Source of the DNA: Flavobacteriales bacterium | Lineage (GTDB): Bacteria; Bacteroidota; Bacteroidia; CAIKAF01 | DNA length: 64,000 nt | Assembly: GCA_025451235.1 (NCBI GenBank) | Contig: JANWKT010000001.1 | Span: 62,001 to 126,000, forward strand | Direction of reading: 5' to 3' | Part shown: one piece after another, positions 4,783 to 13,019 of the stretch | How the letters are laid out: every line of letters begins with the position of its first letter | Numbering within the stretch: the first letter of the stretch is position 1 | Notes under the pieces: generated by a model | The model's database searches: none | Told to the model about the DNA's origin: nothing | What the model saw: the letters and a program-made list of their open reading frames with translations, nothing else | Program-made: the position numbers and the translations under genes

Positions 4783-4874
4783 TTCCAATCGGCAATATGC
4801 AATTGGCAATTGGCAAAGCCATCCGGCGTATACCTTCTTGCTTATTGCTTATTGTCAATTAGAAAAGGTCCCTA
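4783..4874. repeat. Copy 1 of a two-copy ~100-bp inverted-repeat element
   Basis: The element starts CCAATCGGCAAT and ends GTCAATTAG...AAGGTCCCT. Its ends pair imperfectly: about 17 of 23 positions match between the left arm and the reverse complement of the right arm. The centre contains CATCCGG followed by an AT-rich stretch and TTGCT. A diverged second copy lies at 14145-14246 with the same ends, centre and flank. The right end touches the stop codon of the hydroxylase gene. No coding capacity. Confidence 0.6.
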
Positions 4875-5792
4875 TGCCGAAGCTAGTTCAGTCTTGATTT
4901 CCTTGCGAAGTTGTACCGCAGTTTTGGTACTTCCATCATGGCTCCAACCGGGGGGCATGAACATGTATTTGAGTTTATTGAGGATCCCGGGAGCTTTTAT
5001 TACATCCCTTGCTAAAGCAATATATTCATGCGAAGCAATTTTGATCAGGTTATAGGTATGGATATTCGTAGTTAAACCGTAAACGGCCTTTTCATTTTCT
5101 TTTTCAAAAGTACCGAATAACCTGTCCCAGATAATAAAAATACCTGCATGGTTCCGGTCAAGATAAAGTACGTTGGTTCCATGATGAACCCTATGATGCG
5201 ATGGCGTATTCATGAACCATTCTAAAAAACCCATTCTTTTGATCGTTTCGGTATGTAACCAGAATTGGTAGATCAAACTAATGGACATCTGCATGAGAAT
5301 GAAGATAGGATGAAAACCTAACAAGGGTAACCAGGTCCACCAGATATATTTATGGGTAAGTTCTCCCCAGCCCTGGCGAAGCGCAGTTGCCAGGTTATAT
5401 TCTACACTGCTGTGGTGGTTCACATGTCCGCACCAGAACAAACGAACCTGATGGCAAGAGCGGTGGTGGGTATAAAAAGCCAGGTCTTCTAAGAACAATA
5501 AAGCTCCAAAATACAATACCCATTGCCACCATATGGTAGGTTGAAGATCGAAAATCCGGAATTGGTAAATAAGGAGAAATACATTCAAAGCTATGTACTT
5601 CATAAAAATGTTGATGATGGCACTGCCTACTCCCATTCCAATACTGGCAAAGGCTTCCTTCCCACTGTATTTGGGTAGGTTTTCACGCCAGCGTACAAAC
5701 AATTCTATCAGAATTAATAGCACAAAACCGGGCATCGCCCAGGTAATCACTGGATCTGTTTCGGCTGAGTTAAAATTAATAGGGGGTAACAT
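4872..5792 (-). CDS. Fatty acid hydroxylase superfamily protein, alkylglycerol monooxygenase-like
   Basis: 306 residues, a multi-pass membrane protein with the histidine boxes of the sterol desaturase/fatty acid hydroxylase superfamily: HHRSCH, HVNHHSS and SHHRVHHG bind a di-iron centre. Several stretches resemble alkylglycerol monooxygenase (TMEM195) rather than ERG3 or ERG25: YNLATALRQ, LIYQFWLHTE, NHAGIFIIWDRLFGTF and VYGLT. The best guess is therefore O2-dependent cleavage or hydroxylation of an ether or alkyl lipid. It lies upstream of, and diverges from, the prenyl/oxidosqualene locus, so a role in sterol oxidation cannot be excluded. The start follows a TACTTTTG box by 20 bases. Subfamily is inferred by recall, not by alignment. 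Confidence 0.85.
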   Translation of the reverse strand: MLPPINFNSAETDPVITWAMPGFVLLILIELFVRWRENLPKYSGKEAFASIGMGVGSAIINIFMKYIALNVFLLIYQFRIFDLQPTIWWQWVLYFGALLFLEDLAFYTHHRSCHQVRLFWCGHVNHHSSVEYNLATALRQGWGELTHKYIWWTWLPLLGFHPIFILMQMSISLIYQFWLHTETIKRMGFLEWFMNTPSHHRVHHGTNVLYLDRNHAGIFIIWDRLFGTFEKENEKAVYGLTTNIHTYNLIKIASHEYIALARDVIKAPGILNKLKYMFMPPGWSHDGSTKTAVQLRKEIKTELASA

Positions 5793-6079: not shown

Positions 6080-7060
6080 ATGGTCAGCGTTTTACAAACT
6101 ACGGACGAATTGTTACAGCAATATGATTCTTATGCTGCTTCCAATACCTTCCCTTCAGAGCCCAAAGGCATCTATGATGGTGCCAGGCATATCATGAGTA
6201 TTAAGGGAAAAAGGATCCGTCCGCTGTTAGCCTTGCATGCCTGTGAAATTTTTGATGGCAACATAAAAAAAGCGCTGGGTGTGGCCCATGCAGTGGAAGT
6301 ATTCCACAATTTTACCTTGGTACATGATGATATTATGGACAATGCTTCCGTTCGCAGAGGTGTAAAAACCGTGCATGAAGTATATGGAAATAATGTGGCC
6401 ATACTTGCAGGTGATGTAATGTTGTCGTTAGCTTACCAATACTTAGCAGATAACAATGATGATTGTCTGGTTGATCTGATCCAGGTTTTTAACAGGACCG
6501 GAGTACAAGTAATGGAAGGCCAGCAATGGGATGTTGATTTTGAAACACGTTTGGATGTTACTGAAAAAGAATACATCGAAATGATCAAATATAAAACTTC
6601 GGTGTTGATTGCCTGCAGCGTAAAGCTAGGTGCCATTATTGCCGGGGCCAATAAAGAAGACCAGGAAAACTTATACCAGTTTGGTTTACATTTGGGCCTG
6701 GCCTTCCAGATAAAAGATGATTACCTGGATACTTTCGGTGAGGCAGATAAAGTAGGAAAAAGAATCGGTGGAGACATTCTCAACAATAAAAAAACGCTTT
6801 TATTGATCACTGCCTTAAGCAAAGCCGAAGAAAACGACAAGAAAGAATTACTTTCTTTATTAAAAGAAGGAGACGAAAATAAAAAGATAACTAATATAAA
6901 AACGCTTTTCGAAAAAACAGGGGTAAAAGAATATGCAGAACAAAAAATGCAGGAACTATTTACCACCGCGTTGGAGTACCTCGCCAAAGTAAAGGCGGAT
7001 AATGACCGTAAAAATAAACTGGCCCAGTTCGCCGAAAAAGTTTATTACAGAGAGTTTTAA
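6080..7060 (+). CDS. Polyprenyl (farnesyl/geranylgeranyl-type) diphosphate synthase
   Basis: 326 residues, trans-isoprenyl diphosphate synthase. It condenses isopentenyl-PP onto allylic diphosphates. The first aspartate-rich motif is DDIMD at 83-87, followed by RRG. The second is DDYLD at 213-217 with the downstream KVGKRIGGDI. GKRIRP near 43-48 binds isopentenyl-PP. Phe78, five residues before the first motif, is bulky, as in enzymes that stop at C15-C20. With squalene synthase and oxidosqualene cyclase encoded 1.3-3.4 kb away, farnesyl-PP is the product that fits best, but chain length cannot be set from sequence alone. The gene is followed after 51 bases by a zinc-ribbon gene on the same strand. 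Confidence 0.9.
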   Translation: MVSVLQTTDELLQQYDSYAASNTFPSEPKGIYDGARHIMSIKGKRIRPLLALHACEIFDGNIKKALGVAHAVEVFHNFTLVHDDIMDNASVRRGVKTVHEVYGNNVAILAGDVMLSLAYQYLADNNDDCLVDLIQVFNRTGVQVMEGQQWDVDFETRLDVTEKEYIEMIKYKTSVLIACSVKLGAIIAGANKEDQENLYQFGLHLGLAFQIKDDYLDTFGEADKVGKRIGGDILNNKKTLLLITALSKAEENDKKELLSLLKEGDENKKITNIKTLFEKTGVKEYAEQKMQELFTTALEYLAKVKADNDRKNKLAQFAEKVYYREF

Positions 7061-7111: not shown

Positions 7112-8020
7112 ATGAAGATCAAAAGATTTAATTGTCCCGAATGTGGAGCGGCCAAAATAAATCCTTATAAGACCCCTTATGTTTGTTGTGATTATTGTGG
7201 TAGCTGGATCGACCTGGATGCAAGTTTATGGACCGAGATATATGCCAGTCCGAAAAAATTAAAATTATTTGAGGAGCTGCAAGAGCGCATACTGACCAAA
7301 ACTCGGAAAGCCATCAACGAGAAAAACAGGGAGCTCTATTTTTTGGCTCAGCGCGACTACTTCAATAGTTTTTACAATATATATCCGGAGTTTATTCCAC
7401 CTACCATTGGTAAAGGTGAAAAGTTCAAATCATTTTTAAAACTAAAGGCCGAATGGGTTACTGACCTGAAGTTTGATGATCTACAGAATTTAAAGAAAAA
7501 GAAATCAGCTTCCGATCGTGCCATGCAGAACCTGCAATCACCTAAAGAGCCACTGGTGGATTTTTTTGCTGCATTTATTGAAGCGGCAGATGTCTATCAT
7601 CGCTACCTCCAACAAGAGGAGGCGGTAAAGAGTTCAACTCCTAAATATGCCTGGCTGAAAGAAGTGTATCCAGAGAAGTTTGAGCATAAAATGAAAATGG
7701 GATTGATGGTGAATGCATACCTCATGCGCTTATCCGATCTGGAACTCAAACATTTTCAAAAAAAATATGGTCTTGAATATGAATATGTGGAGATCCCACA
7801 ACCCGATAAGATCCAGGTCAGTTGCAGCCATTGTTATCAAAATACCGAAGCGGTAAAAGGAGCTATTCGATGTGTTTGTGAACATTGTTTGGAACTAACT
7901 ATTATCCACCATCATATCAATTGTAGCAATTGTGGAATGGAAAATCAACTTCCAGAAAAATTCAGCATGCTATTGAACTGCTCAGGATGCGGAACTGAAA
8001 TAAGGGTGATCAAATTTTAA
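7112..8020 (+). CDS. Multi-zinc-ribbon protein of unknown function
   Basis: 302 residues, not assigned to a named family. The N-terminus has a CPECG / CCDYCG zinc ribbon (Cys8, Cys11, Cys26, Cys29). A charged, mostly helical middle (about 45-230) is rich in Lys, Glu and aromatic residues. The C-terminus carries four more CxxC pairs (CSHC, CEHC, CSNC, CSGC; about 237-300), enough for two more ribbons. No signal peptide or membrane segment, so it is probably cytoplasmic. It lies between the prenyl synthase and the oxidosqualene cyclase gene, converging on the latter with 8 bases between stops. A functional link to the lipid pathway is only positional. A shorter protein with ribbons at both ends is encoded at 46669-47307. 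Confidence 0.8.
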   Translation: MKIKRFNCPECGAAKINPYKTPYVCCDYCGSWIDLDASLWTEIYASPKKLKLFEELQERILTKTRKAINEKNRELYFLAQRDYFNSFYNIYPEFIPPTIGKGEKFKSFLKLKAEWVTDLKFDDLQNLKKKKSASDRAMQNLQSPKEPLVDFFAAFIEAADVYHRYLQQEEAVKSSTPKYAWLKEVYPEKFEHKMKMGLMVNAYLMRLSDLELKHFQKKYGLEYEYVEIPQPDKIQVSCSHCYQNTEAVKGAIRCVCEHCLELTIIHHHINCSNCGMENQLPEKFSMLLNCSGCGTEIRVIKF

Positions 8021-8028
8021 TGAAGCCG

Positions 8029-10323
8029 TCAAAAAGCTTGCCCGGATAGTTTAGCATACCTGCTTAAAGCCCAGAGAGGAAATACATTCCGGTAGGAAGT
8101 ATAGGTGATCATACAATTAAAATTAAATACCCCTGAAATTTGCTGTTGAGGAAAATCCCCCCAGGCATCCTGCATGGAAAGCAAGTATTTTATTCCCCGA
8201 TCAATGGCTTCTTTATTTGAACTACCGGCAGCCATTAATGCCAGCAGTGCCCAGGCGGTATTGGTGATCTGTGATTGTGGATGTTCAACATATTTTTTCT
8301 GAACACAACTTTCGTAATGCTCACCCCAGCCACCATCTTCTTTTTGTATGGATAATAAAAACTCACAAGCTTTTTTTATCTCAAGTGACGACGCAGGATC
8401 TTCTCCGGAAGCAATCAGCCCTTCAATCCCAAACCAAGTGGCATACGTAAAACAAATGGCCCATGAGCCCATCCAGGATCCATCCATCCGCTGAATGGAT
8501 TTCAAAAATTCGTTTCCTTTTTTGATCGCCGCATTGATTTCTGAGGCACGATAGTCGGCATATTCTGATCTGAATTTTACCAATCCTTGCAAACATGCGG
8601 AAGTACATTCTGCATAACTATAATCCAGCATAATATCTCCAAATACTTCGGCTGCATTGAGTTTTTCAATCCATTTCGGGGCTCTGGTTGGTTCATAAGA
8701 AGCCCAGCCTCCGTCCTTATTCTGGTAAGCCAACAATACGTTGATCGAGTATTGTAATCGCTCTTTGCTGATCGTTTTTTCTTCCTCCTTCAATATCCCC
8801 GAATGCATGTATTTGATAGAAGTTTTCATTCCTTCCGCTGTACAGTCAGTAATAGGCCAGCCTTGTTCGAAAGTTGAAAATGCCCATCCTCCTTTGCGTA
8901 TGGAACGGTCGTATTTTTTTCTGTTGGGTATTTCTGTTTTTATTTGCTGATCATCCAACCAACGATAGATATTTTTTGCCATAGAAGGAAACTCCTTGTC
9001 CAGGCCACCTTCCATTAAAGCCAATGCCGCAAAATTAGTATCCCAAAACTGACTTCCATTGTATCCGTTCATCTTCATTCCATCTTCTGCCAGCCATAAA
9101 TAATCGAACCACCTTTCTGAATTTTCTTTGAACTCCATGCTTTCTTTTCCATAAGCATGGTACATACACAAGGCATTCATTACATGGTTTACAGGACCCA
9201 GGTTGATGGAAAAAGTATGGGTATTCTCCTGTTTCATTTGTTCGATCAGGAATTTTGAAGTTGATTTTCTCCAACTTTTTAGATGGATCTTTTCGTACAT
9301 ATTCATGATCCGGGTTGCCAACTTCAACAAGCCACTATGAGGGGTATACAGGTCCTTTAAACAAAACTGGTTCCTGGCTTTCTTCCAGTTCACTTCGTTA
9401 TAGGGTGTGGTATATAATTCCGTTTGAAGTTCTTTGATCAATGCGGTTTCTTCTCCTTTCAATTTATGGGCAAAACAGTAAGCCATGGGCATATGAACCA
9501 TTCTTGCATGGCACCAATATTTCGCGGGATGAATAGGTAGCCATTTCGGAAATTTCCATATTTCCGGCAAGATGGAATTATATCCCTTCCAATCATATAC
9601 TCCTAAAACTGATAAATAGAATTTTCCCCAGCTGGGAATATAATTGGCGCCTCCATTTGCATGGATCCACATTTTTGCTTTTTCGATGGCAGGCTCATTT
9701 TTTTTCTCTCCCAATAATCGGAGTGCCACATATTGGAGCACAGTACCCAACATGGTAGATGCACCTTCGATGTGCAATCCCCAGCCTCCATCTTCATTCT
9801 GCATATTGAGCATGTATTGCCTGCATAACATGGCATAAGGGGCTGAGATAGGAGTTTGGCTAAGATGGGAAACGATCACCATGCCGGGTAATAAGAAAAG
9901 AGGCCCTCCATAATCACCAGGCCAGTTTCCATCCGGAGCCTGCAATGCCTGATAAAAATGAAATCCCTTTCTGGCAGCTGATGTTGCCTGGTCATTCAAT
10001 TGATCGGAGGAAGGTTCCTCTGGCAGTGGATTGAAGTTGGTTTTATATAAGCTACCGGTCCTAAAGACCAGGTCAGCTGAATGTGGCTGGCTTTTCTTAT
10101 CATATTCGAAGGCAGCCTTCATTTTTAGCAAAAAATCCTGAGCCTCAGGCTTTTGCCAGTCAGACTCTGTTTTAACCAATTCCTTTAGCGAATCAGGTGG
10201 TATAAATTTCCAGACCTGCCTCCCTCTGCGGGTTTCAAGGGTCCAGCAATCCCAATAGGCCCGTTTCTGGGAATCTATCTTATTGAGGATCTTTGAGTTC
10301 TCGACCACTTCACTAACAGGCAT
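8029..10323 (-). CDS. Oxidosqualene cyclase (sterol/triterpenol-forming, cycloartenol/lanosterol synthase family)
   Basis: 764 residues, the size of eukaryotic oxidosqualene cyclases. It should fold and cyclise 2,3-oxidosqualene at the membrane face. The catalytic motif is DCTAE (Asp493), not the DxDD of squalene-hopene cyclases. The residue two before the Asp is Ile (GWPITDCTAE), as in cycloartenol synthase; lanosterol synthases usually have Val. The WCHAR...MPMAY block keeps the active-site His. Several QW repeats are visible (QAPDGNW, QNEDGGW, QNKDGGW, QRMDGSW, QKEDGGW). The C-terminus reads MITYTSYRNVFPLWALSRY, as in the family. I start at ATG 10323; the 18 codons upstream depend on a TTG and look non-coding. 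It diverges from squalene synthase and squalene monooxygenase. Product identity is not decided. Confidence 0.93.
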   Translation of the reverse strand: MPVSEVVENSKILNKIDSQKRAYWDCWTLETRRGRQVWKFIPPDSLKELVKTESDWQKPEAQDFLLKMKAAFEYDKKSQPHSADLVFRTGSLYKTNFNPLPEEPSSDQLNDQATSAARKGFHFYQALQAPDGNWPGDYGGPLFLLPGMVIVSHLSQTPISAPYAMLCRQYMLNMQNEDGGWGLHIEGASTMLGTVLQYVALRLLGEKKNEPAIEKAKMWIHANGGANYIPSWGKFYLSVLGVYDWKGYNSILPEIWKFPKWLPIHPAKYWCHARMVHMPMAYCFAHKLKGEETALIKELQTELYTTPYNEVNWKKARNQFCLKDLYTPHSGLLKLATRIMNMYEKIHLKSWRKSTSKFLIEQMKQENTHTFSINLGPVNHVMNALCMYHAYGKESMEFKENSERWFDYLWLAEDGMKMNGYNGSQFWDTNFAALALMEGGLDKEFPSMAKNIYRWLDDQQIKTEIPNRKKYDRSIRKGGWAFSTFEQGWPITDCTAEGMKTSIKYMHSGILKEEEKTISKERLQYSINVLLAYQNKDGGWASYEPTRAPKWIEKLNAAEVFGDIMLDYSYAECTSACLQGLVKFRSEYADYRASEINAAIKKGNEFLKSIQRMDGSWMGSWAICFTYATWFGIEGLIASGEDPASSLEIKKACEFLLSIQKEDGGWGEHYESCVQKKYVEHPQSQITNTAWALLALMAAGSSNKEAIDRGIKYLLSMQDAWGDFPQQQISGVFNFNCMITYTSYRNVFPLWALSRYAKLSGQAF

Positions 10324-10413
10324 GTTTGATAATTTTTTGTTAAAAAACCACCTAGAATGGCACAAAAATTGCACCAAAAAGGGGGTTGAATAAAATTAAT
10401 TCATTTCGCTTGC

Positions 10414-10429: not shown

Positions 10430-11620
10430 ATGTTGAAAGATCTGTACCAATCGGCCTTATTTCCTAGTGAGATCAAAGCAATGCTGAAGATCAAGATCGA
10501 AGGACAGAAGTTTGCTCCCAGCAAACATTCGTTGGAGGAATTGGCATTGATGGAATCAGATAAAGAGTTTTGTTATTCGGCCCTCAATAAAGTATCACGT
10601 TCATTTGCTATGGTGATCCAACAATTGCCGGAAGACCTGAAGGATGCTGTTTGTGTTTTTTACTTAGTATTAAGAGCATTGGATACCGTAGAGGATGATA
10701 TGAAATTTCCTGAGGCTGAGAAATGGCCCCTATTAAGAGAATTCCATAAAAAATCATACGATGAAACATTTAAACTTTCAGGAGTGGGTGATCAGGACGA
10801 CTATACTGTTCTCCTTGAGAATTATCCTAAAGTAACCAGGGTATTTAAATCATTGCATCCTTCGTACCAATATGTTATTTCCGATATCTGTTATAAAATG
10901 GGGAATGGGATGGCAGACTTCAGCGAGAAAAAAGTACATAGCATAGAGGATTATGATCTTTATTGCCATTATGTAGCTGGGTTGGTTGGAATTGGTCTGA
11001 GTGGTTTATTCAGTGCTTCAGGTGCTGAACATCCAGGATTAAAAGATCAGAACCAACTATCGAACTCAATGGGTTTGTTGTTACAAAAGACCAATATTAT
11101 TCGTGACTATTGTGAAGATCTGCAGGGTGATAGGGTATTCTGGCCTTCGGATGTATGGAAACAATATGCCGATGACCTGGATTTCTTTCATAAAAATCCC
11201 CACCATCCAAAATCGGTGGCCTGTTTAAATCACCTGGTAACGGATGCACTCCGGCATGTTTCGGATGCATTGGCTTACATGAGCATATTAAGGAATAAAA
11301 AAGTATTTCGTTTTTGTGCCATTCCGCAAGTAATGGCCATAGCTACCCTGGCGAAAGTTTACAATAACCCTCAGGTATTTGTAGGCAATGTAAAGATCCG
11401 CAAAGGTTTGGCGGCTAAACTCATGTTGGAAACCCATAATATCGAAGATGTATATGAATACTTCGATCAATTTGCCCGTGAGATCTTAAGGAAGCTATCT
11501 ACCAATGACCCAAATTATCATAATACCAAAGCGCAACTAGAATTGATATTTGCCACCATTGATGAACCTGCTAATCTGGCCAAAAACATTTTAGTTCAGG
11601 AAGAAAAAATGAGTGTATAA
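10430..11620 (+). CDS. Squalene synthase (eukaryote-type farnesyl-diphosphate farnesyltransferase)
   Basis: 396 residues. It joins two farnesyl-PP through presqualene-PP and reduces the product to squalene with NADPH. The first aspartate motif is DTVED (85-89) within FYLVLRALDTVEDDM, and the second is DYCED (226-230) within LLLQKTNIIRDYCEDL. These match the ERG9-type enzyme better than the bacterial HpnC/HpnD pair or phytoene synthases. YCHYVAGLVGIGLSGLF also matches. The C-terminal membrane anchor of eukaryotic enzymes is absent. ATG start; the squalene monooxygenase gene follows after 19 bases, so the two are probably one operon. Confidence 0.93.
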   Translation: MLKDLYQSALFPSEIKAMLKIKIEGQKFAPSKHSLEELALMESDKEFCYSALNKVSRSFAMVIQQLPEDLKDAVCVFYLVLRALDTVEDDMKFPEAEKWPLLREFHKKSYDETFKLSGVGDQDDYTVLLENYPKVTRVFKSLHPSYQYVISDICYKMGNGMADFSEKKVHSIEDYDLYCHYVAGLVGIGLSGLFSASGAEHPGLKDQNQLSNSMGLLLQKTNIIRDYCEDLQGDRVFWPSDVWKQYADDLDFFHKNPHHPKSVACLNHLVTDALRHVSDALAYMSILRNKKVFRFCAIPQVMAIATLAKVYNNPQVFVGNVKIRKGLAAKLMLETHNIEDVYEYFDQFAREILRKLSTNDPNYHNTKAQLELIFATIDEPANLAKNILVQEEKMSV

Positions 11621-11639: not shown

Positions 11640-13019
11640 ATGAATTCTACCCCTTCTTATGATGTTTGCATAATTGGTGCCGGTGTGGCTGGTGCTGCCA
11701 TGGCTGCATACTTGGGTAAAAATGGTAAAAAAGTAGTAGTGATCGAAAAAAGCCTGGCCGAAATGGACAGGATATTAGGTGAGCTTTTACAGCCTGGGGG
11801 TGTTCAAATGCTCAAGAAAATGGGACTTGAACATTGCCTGGAAAATATCGATGCACAGCCAGTGGTTGGCTATGGAATGTTCCTGGATGGAAAGAGTTTC
11901 CAAATCGGATATCAGGCCAAAGAAAAAGGGTTAACAGGTTTTGGATTTAGAAATGGGAAATTTGTACAAAACCTGCGGGCCTATATGCAAAGTATTCCCA
12001 ACATCACCGTTATAGAGGCAACTGCCCAATCATTAATAGAAGAAGGGGGTATAGTAAAAGGAGTGAACTATACCAACCATGAGGATATCCCTGTTCAACT
12101 CACAGCCAGAATAACCATCGTATGCGATGGTGCACTTTCTATATTCCGACAACAGCTTTCTGCTTCTGAAAAAAAGATCACCGGATATTTTTTAGGCCTG
12201 GTATTAGAAAACTGTATTTTACCTTATCCTAATCATGGACATGTGATCATGTCGGGTACATCCCCTATTTTATTATATCCCATTACATCTACCGGTACCC
12301 GGGCATTGATCGATTTTCAAGGTGATCAAGCCCCCAGGATGGGTGAAGAGCTCAAACAACATTTACTCAACAAAATTGGCGCTGTGATCCCTGAATCCGC
12401 CAAGCCATCGTATATCAACGCGGTGAATGCCGGGAAATATAAAGTATTCCCGAATCACCGGTTACCGGCCCATCCAGTTCTGAAAAAAGGGGTCGTACTC
12501 TTGGGGGATTCATTGAATATGAGACATCCCCTTACCGGAGGTGGAATGACCGCTGCTTTTTCGGATAGTTATAACCTGGGAAATTGTTTACTCGAAGTAA
12601 AAGACTGGTGGAATGCAAAAGAGATTGAATTAGCGGTTAAAAAATTCTATGATACAAAAACAACCCAAACTGCTTCCATCAATATTCTTGCCGATGCTTT
12701 ATATGGAGTCATGACCAGCCAGGACTTAAAAGAAGCTTGTTATAGCTATTTAATGCAGGGAGGATTAAAAGCATCAGAGCCGGTTTCTATTTTATCTGTT
12801 CTGTCGAGAGATAAAGAAATGTTGCAACGGCATTTTTTCGCAGTGGCATTTCATGGCGCAGGAAATATCATGCGATCAAAATCAGGTGGCGGAAAAATAA
12901 AAAGGAGTTATCGCATGATCAAAGATGCGATCCATATTATTTCACCCCTTCTTCTCCACGAAAGACCCACATGGCTCATGAAGAGTTTATTGAAGGTAGG
13001 GAAAAAGGTTTTTAGATAG
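11640..13019 (+). CDS. Squalene monooxygenase (squalene epoxidase)
   Basis: 459 residues, an FAD-dependent enzyme making 2,3-oxidosqualene from squalene, O2 and reducing power. The N-terminal Rossmann motif GAGVAG is at 13-18, followed by an E ending the second strand (VVVIEK). The second FAD motif, GDSLNMRHPLTGGGM, starts at Gly289 and is a hallmark of squalene epoxidases (GD plus NMRHPLTGGGMT). RILGELLQPGG near residues 42-52 also matches the family. No N-terminal anchor is seen; a basic, hydrophobic C-terminus may associate with the membrane. It lies in the squalene synthase operon and supplies the substrate of the divergent cyclase. It strongly supports an oxidosqualene rather than a hopane pathway. 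Confidence 0.95.
   Translation: MNSTPSYDVCIIGAGVAGAAMAAYLGKNGKKVVVIEKSLAEMDRILGELLQPGGVQMLKKMGLEHCLENIDAQPVVGYGMFLDGKSFQIGYQAKEKGLTGFGFRNGKFVQNLRAYMQSIPNITVIEATAQSLIEEGGIVKGVNYTNHEDIPVQLTARITIVCDGALSIFRQQLSASEKKITGYFLGLVLENCILPYPNHGHVIMSGTSPILLYPITSTGTRALIDFQGDQAPRMGEELKQHLLNKIGAVIPESAKPSYINAVNAGKYKVFPNHRLPAHPVLKKGVVLLGDSLNMRHPLTGGGMTAAFSDSYNLGNCLLEVKDWWNAKEIELAVKKFYDTKTTQTASINILADALYGVMTSQDLKEACYSYLMQGGLKASEPVSILSVLSRDKEMLQRHFFAVAFHGAGNIMRSKSGGGKIKRSYRMIKDAIHIISPLLLHERPTWLMKSLLKVGKKVFR

Follow-up and report, generated by a model that had tools for sequence, protein, structure and literature searches.

What does a bacterial oxidosqualene cyclase (OSC) make when its diagnostic residues point in different directions? 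The products of bacterial OSCs have so far been predicted from residue 453 (human lanosterol synthase, LSS, numbering, used below unless stated otherwise), and such predictions are drawn on in interpreting sterane biomarkers and the origin of sterol synthesis. The OSC gene in the window analyzed here, a stretch of 64,000 nucleotides, encodes Ile at residue 453 and Gln at residue 449; its genus separates the two residues in nature and is thereby an exception on which the one-residue rule can be tested.

Identity of the cyclase and its gene cluster

The mechanically called open-reading frame at this locus spans 8029-10377 from a TTG start, and the encoded protein is taken as 764 residues beginning at MPVSEV. 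Both Pfam profiles PF13249 and PF13243 scored above cut-off in this protein, as did the NCBIfam model TIGR01787 (664 bits against a cut-off of 323), and residues 114-759 aligned to human LSS with E = 2.9e-203 at approximately 42% identity, making the mapping onto Val453 and Asp455 unambiguous. The best PDB matches of an AF2 model (mean pLDDT 89.4) were human OSC structures 1w6j/1w6k, with TM scores of 0.86 by query length and 0.91 by target length. The presence of both squalene cyclase domains (N and C), a closer match to human OSC than to hopene cyclase, the DCTAE acid with its two supporting Cys, His232 and Tyr503, and the co-located squalene synthase and squalene epoxidase genes identify the protein as a sterol-type OSC. 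The score against TIGR03463 (2,3-oxidosqualene cyclase) was 656 bits, below the cut-off of 851, which looks like the effect of a narrow model and not evidence against OSC membership, since the broader TIGR01787 was passed. Assignments as a hopene cyclase (TIGR01507, 269 bits, below the cut-off of 431) or a tetrahymanol cyclase (TIGR04277, below cut-off) were rejected, with human OSC the closest match.

Table 1 Features of the cyclase locus, mapped active-site residues, and epoxidase-cyclase fusions at other loci
Feature	Position	Strand	Evidence or remark
Fatty-acid-hydroxylase/sterol-desaturase superfamily protein	4872-5792	-	PF04116; beside cluster
Short-chain polyprenyl (probably farnesyl) diphosphate synthase (FPPS)	6080..7060	+	PF00348, E = 2.4e-78
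302-aa protein with zinc-ribbon-like CxxC motifs	7112-8020	+	Between FPPS and OSC; no Pfam/NCBIfam match
Oxidosqualene cyclase (OSC), 764 aa, MPVSEV start	8032..10323	-	Pfam, NCBIfam, human LSS match, model
GWPITDCTAE	8833..8862	-	Contains catalytic Asp and Ile; residue mapping
Catalytic Asp (human D455)	codon 8845-8847	-	Residue mapping
Ile (human 453, CAS1 481)	codon 8851-8853	-	Residue mapping
Gln487 (human 449, Arabidopsis CAS1 His477)	8863..8865	-	Departs from cycloartenol-synthase triad
Ala481 (human 443)	8881..8883	-	Beside product-determining Phe444; residue mapping
Tyr421 (human 381, CAS1 Tyr410)	9061..9063	-	Cycloartenol-type; residue mapping
His277 (human 237)	9493..9495	-	Channel-gate Tyr in most OSCs; residue mapping
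His272, His of WCHAR (human His232)	9508..9510	-	Conserved; residue mapping
Squalene synthase (SQS)	10430..11620	+	TIGR01559 above cut-off, 470.6 bits
Squalene epoxidase (SQE), FAD monooxygenase	11640..13019	+	PF08491, E = 1.8e-75
Epoxidase-cyclase fusion	L096 1417-4875	-	PF08491 with PF13249, PF13243
Epoxidase-cyclase fusion	L097, cut by contig end		PF08491 with PF13249, PF13243
Epoxidase-cyclase fusion	L098 46-3537	+	PF08491 with PF13249, PF13243
Epoxidase-cyclase fusion	L099 1-3501	+	PF08491 with PF13249, PF13243

The SQS and SQE genes are divergent from OSC, and FPPS lies on its other side. The same order (FPPS, hypothetical, OSC, SQS, SQE, crcB, hypothetical) was present on a contig from a genus sibling, with identities of 89% for FPPS, 89% for SQS, 83% for SQE and 76% for OSC. 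The cluster is partly conserved across the phylum, as SQE-SQS is divergent from OSC in many other Bacteroidota and FPPS adjoins OSC in many relatives, including Fluviicola-type genomes. Searches of the Pfam and NCBIfam profiles returned no match for the 302-aa protein, which is 37% identical to its counterpart in the sibling compared to 76-89% for its neighbors. No counterpart of the PF04116 protein was found beside OSC in any related locus, so it is probably unrelated to the sterol pathway.

Together, FPPS, SQS, SQE and OSC would constitute a short pathway from farnesyl-PP through squalene and 2,3-oxidosqualene to a tetracyclic triterpenol, with the cyclase as its last enzyme. A search of the genome for a second triterpene cyclase, including a hopene cyclase, found none and returned one distant prenyltransferase-like protein only. 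Downstream sterol demethylation was also considered and rejected: the genome contained no match to ERG4/ERG24 (C-14 reductase) in a search that finds one in a myxobacterial genome, and its sole P450 does not resemble CYP51: its nearest matches are CYP102/BM3-type and CYP97-like chains, and CYP51 is not among the 60 matches listed for it. The pathway therefore probably ends at the cyclase product, and the same minimal pathway has been reported for Fluviicola taffensis (PMC4919349).

Active-site residues

A sequence-only reading of this DNA had pointed to an Ile at position -2 relative to the catalytic Asp in GWPITDCTAE and to a retained His in WCHAR, and both were confirmed by residue mapping (Table 1). 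The cyclase also keeps Y98, W230, F444, C456, Y503, C533, W581 and F696 in addition to H232 and D455; in OSC, His232 forms a hydrogen bond with Tyr503 (PMC9236903). The residue at position 237 is the substrate-channel gate, where a Tyr-to-Phe change lowers the activity of the yeast OSC (PMC3141018).

Cycloartenol and lanosterol synthases are told apart by residues 381/449/453 of human LSS, equivalent to 410/477/481 in Arabidopsis CAS1 (PMC7060231, PMC4919349). In cycloartenol synthases this triad is Tyr/His/Ile and 'invariable', while lanosterol synthases have Val at the third position, Thr or Tyr at the first, and Cys, Gln, His or, rarely, Asn at the second (PMC5101207); in the plant cycloartenol synthases His477 and Ile481 are both 'strictly' needed (PMC4208727). 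The triad in the query is Tyr/Gln/Ile. Six positions before the Asp, where the sequence-only reading was silent, cycloartenol synthases have His but the query and its genus sibling have Gln, and the Ile at 453 is not the Val of lanosterol synthases, so that, as judged by alignment, the triad fits neither the cycloartenol-type nor the lanosterol-type pattern. The alignment at CAS1 Tyr410, His477 and Ile481, which that reading had proposed as a check, thus gave a mixed answer, with Tyr and Ile as expected for a cycloartenol synthase and Gln in place of His. The Leu444 of the Gemmata and sea cucumber type of parkeol synthase is absent, with Phe at this position.

Rarity and ancestry of the triad

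The distribution of these residues was determined in 82 aligned bacterial OSCs, comprising the query, its genus sibling (L005) and 80 loci on named genome contigs, mainly from Bacteroidota and methanotrophs, with eukaryotic OSCs represented by human LSS and by statements in the literature. Residues 449 and 453 were His/Ile in 35 enzymes, Asn/Val in 28, Gln/Val in nine, His/Val in eight, and Gln/Ile in two, the query and the sibling only; all 35 of the other enzymes with Ile453 therefore have His449. Tyr/Gln/Ile may exist outside the surveyed set. Within the family of the query, all other OSCs whose alignment covered the position are Tyr/His/Ile, and one further OSC of the group, read from two samples of 395 genomes each (phylum and class), is His/Ile.

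The sibling enzyme, from a different genome, keeps Gln-Gly-Trp-Pro-Ile-Thr-Asp-Cys and encodes Gln449 with CAG where the query has CAA. These synonymous codons indicate that Gln has persisted since their divergence and make an error in the motif unlikely; with the 764-residue frame intact, a sequencing error or pseudogene was rejected. Several genus-specific changes lie in two cavity segments. Those specific to the genus include Ala at 443, directly before Phe444 (Pro in 80 of the 80 other bacterial OSCs with data), and His at 237 (Tyr or Phe in 79 of 80 others). A delta-proteobacterial OSC (L086) also has His237 and Gln449, but with Val453.

Maximum-likelihood analysis of 59 OSCs grouped the query with its sibling in one clade (support 100) inside the Bacteroidota cyclases, with His449 on the neighboring branches; the resulting tree needed seven changes at residue 449 and five at residue 453. 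Placement of the pair among its nearest neighbors had moderate support (81), but since every candidate neighbor has His449, Gln449 is most simply explained as derived from His in the genus of the query. OSC is less conserved than SQS between the siblings, which could have hinted at a new function, but a similar lag occurs in other congener pairs.

Two side observations came from the same comparison. The Fluviicola/Crocinitomicaceae clade contains close relatives that differ at residue 453 (L020, L022, L023, L025, L034, L051, L090 and L094 versus L021, L092 and L093), some being Tyr/His/Val, with Glu at 702, and others Tyr/His/Ile; such a naturally occurring series could serve to test the one-residue rule. 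Bacteroidota-type OSCs nested among those of Bacteroidota were also found in L021 (CP034120.1, titled as a Glaciecola amylolytica chromosome) and L087 (titled as a Competibacteraceae MAG), reflecting either transfer or mislabelled records.

Predicted product and alternative readings

In OSC chemistry, protonation leads to a protosteryl cation and 1,2-shifts to C8/C9 cations, and the final proton is lost from C8/C9 to give lanosterol, from C11 to give parkeol, or from C19 to give cycloartenol (PMC9236903, PMC6423090); cycloartenol synthase mutants are able to form lanosterol or parkeol (PMC6423090). From this known chemistry, and given the gene, cluster, residues and derived status observed here, we infer the cyclization steps and the product of the query. 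Protonation of the epoxide would come from the catalytic Asp, which two conserved Cys hold in place, and the substrate would fold and cyclize to the protosteryl cation, with hydride and methyl shifts carrying the charge to C8/C9. The ancestral enzyme would have been Tyr/His/Ile, and the second-sphere His that would have steered C19 proton loss would have been replaced by Gln in this genus, accompanied by the substitutions P443A and Y237H, both near other cavity residues in sequence. The final proton would then most likely be taken largely from C11 (parkeol) and from C8/C9 (lanosterol), and less cycloartenol, or none, would form.

The triad of the query is that of CAS1 H477Q, and a parkeol-rich or mixed product would be expected on this basis. 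In their directed evolution of Arabidopsis CAS1, Segura et al. in 2002 reportedly found that His477 alters catalysis, the H477Q enzyme being said to yield about 73% parkeol and 22% lanosterol and the H477N enzyme about 88% lanosterol. To our knowledge, the His477-to-Gln route to parkeol is known only from the laboratory mutant. We put at about even the chances that the query is a cyclase of the cycloartenol synthase lineage with altered final deprotonation and a parkeol-rich or mixed tetracyclic sterol as its predicted product; on the other side, the H477Q product figures stem from a distant plant enzyme, and Phe444 is retained, unlike the Leu444 of the Gemmata parkeol synthase. We propose only tentatively that parkeol would be the dominant product, made by a dedicated natural Tyr/Gln/Ile parkeol synthase that evolved independently of the Leu444 route. 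If parkeol is made, it would be reached in nature by a second route, and dedicated parkeol synthesis by this enzyme would break the rule that in bacteria Ile453 by itself denotes cycloartenol.

The cycloartenol-like product suggested by the sequence-only reading was borne out in part, as Ile453, Tyr381 together with Phe444, and the Tyr/His/Ile triads of the closest lineages all favor it, and Ile453 by itself was a correct predictor of cycloartenol in all bacteria tested, including F. taffensis (Wei et al. 2016, PMC4919349). The equivalent of CAS1 His477, however, is Gln, against the invariable triad and strict His requirement described for cycloartenol synthases (PMC5101207, PMC4208727) and the His449 of every other Ile453 enzyme in the survey, and several of the genus-specific changes fall in the two cavity segments. 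The alignment also suggests that the bacteria tested by Wei et al. carried His449. Because Ile453 has been predictive in every tested bacterium and the Y237H change could supply a compensating His, an ordinary cycloartenol synthase, in which Ile453 and Tyr381 suffice, Gln449 is tolerated or compensated, and the product is essentially cycloartenol, is a less likely but serious alternative, and cycloartenol should not be assumed as the product of this enzyme.

A lanosterol synthase acting by another route, with Gln449 (as in fungal LSS) and a small residue at 443 overriding Ile453, is improbable; nine of the 82 OSCs, of lanosterol type, do combine Gln449 with Val453 and human LSS has Ser at 443, but the query is without Val453, the most consistent marker of these enzymes, and retains Tyr381, a residue that can occur in lanosterol-type OSCs too. 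The arborane-type product that had also been suggested, or another unusual pentacyclic triterpenol, gained no positive evidence and is very improbable, for while Eudoraea adriatica, whose arborane (isoarborinol-type) synthase is likewise a Bacteroidota OSC adjoining squalene epoxidase, belongs to the same phylum and the query has unusual residues near the cavity, the Eudoraea enzyme (not among the 80 loci compared) is listed under the lanosterol type, apart from the Fluviicola lineage (PMC4919349), the query lies among Tyr/His/Ile OSCs in the tree, and all LSS/CAS residues checked around the C20 cation end are kept (H232, F696, Y503, W230).

Comparison with known enzymes

The query shares with the cycloartenol synthases Arabidopsis CAS1 and F. 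taffensis Fluta_3214 its family, fold, DCTAE and GWPI(S/T)DC motifs, Tyr410 and Ile481 equivalents, and phylogenetic neighborhood, and differs from them in having Gln for His477, Ala for the Pro before Phe444, and His for the gate Tyr237. All catalytic residues are shared with the lanosterol synthases (human LSS, 1W6K, and methanotroph OSCs), and many lanosterol-type OSCs have Gln or Asn at 449, whereas the query has Ile for Val at 453 and Tyr for the animal Thr at 381. The parkeol synthases of Gemmata obscuriglobus (GoPS) and sea cucumber (PS) are OSCs with altered final deprotonation whose product the query possibly shares, but they carry Leu444 (PMC9236903), and the query, with Phe444, would use a different residue. 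In its mode of action the query would resemble a cycloartenol or parkeol synthase, while the residue patterns make it a variant within the OSCs that lies outside the cycloartenol, lanosterol and Leu444-type parkeol synthases.

Epoxidase-cyclase fusions in other families

In other families of the phylum, a squalene-epoxidase-like FAD monooxygenase was found joined to an OSC-like cyclase in single frames of ~1150-1170 residues (Table 1). No description of such an epoxidase-cyclase fusion was found in the literature searched. The cyclase portions carry GWPVSDCTAE or GWPVTDCTAE and have Ala at human position 381.
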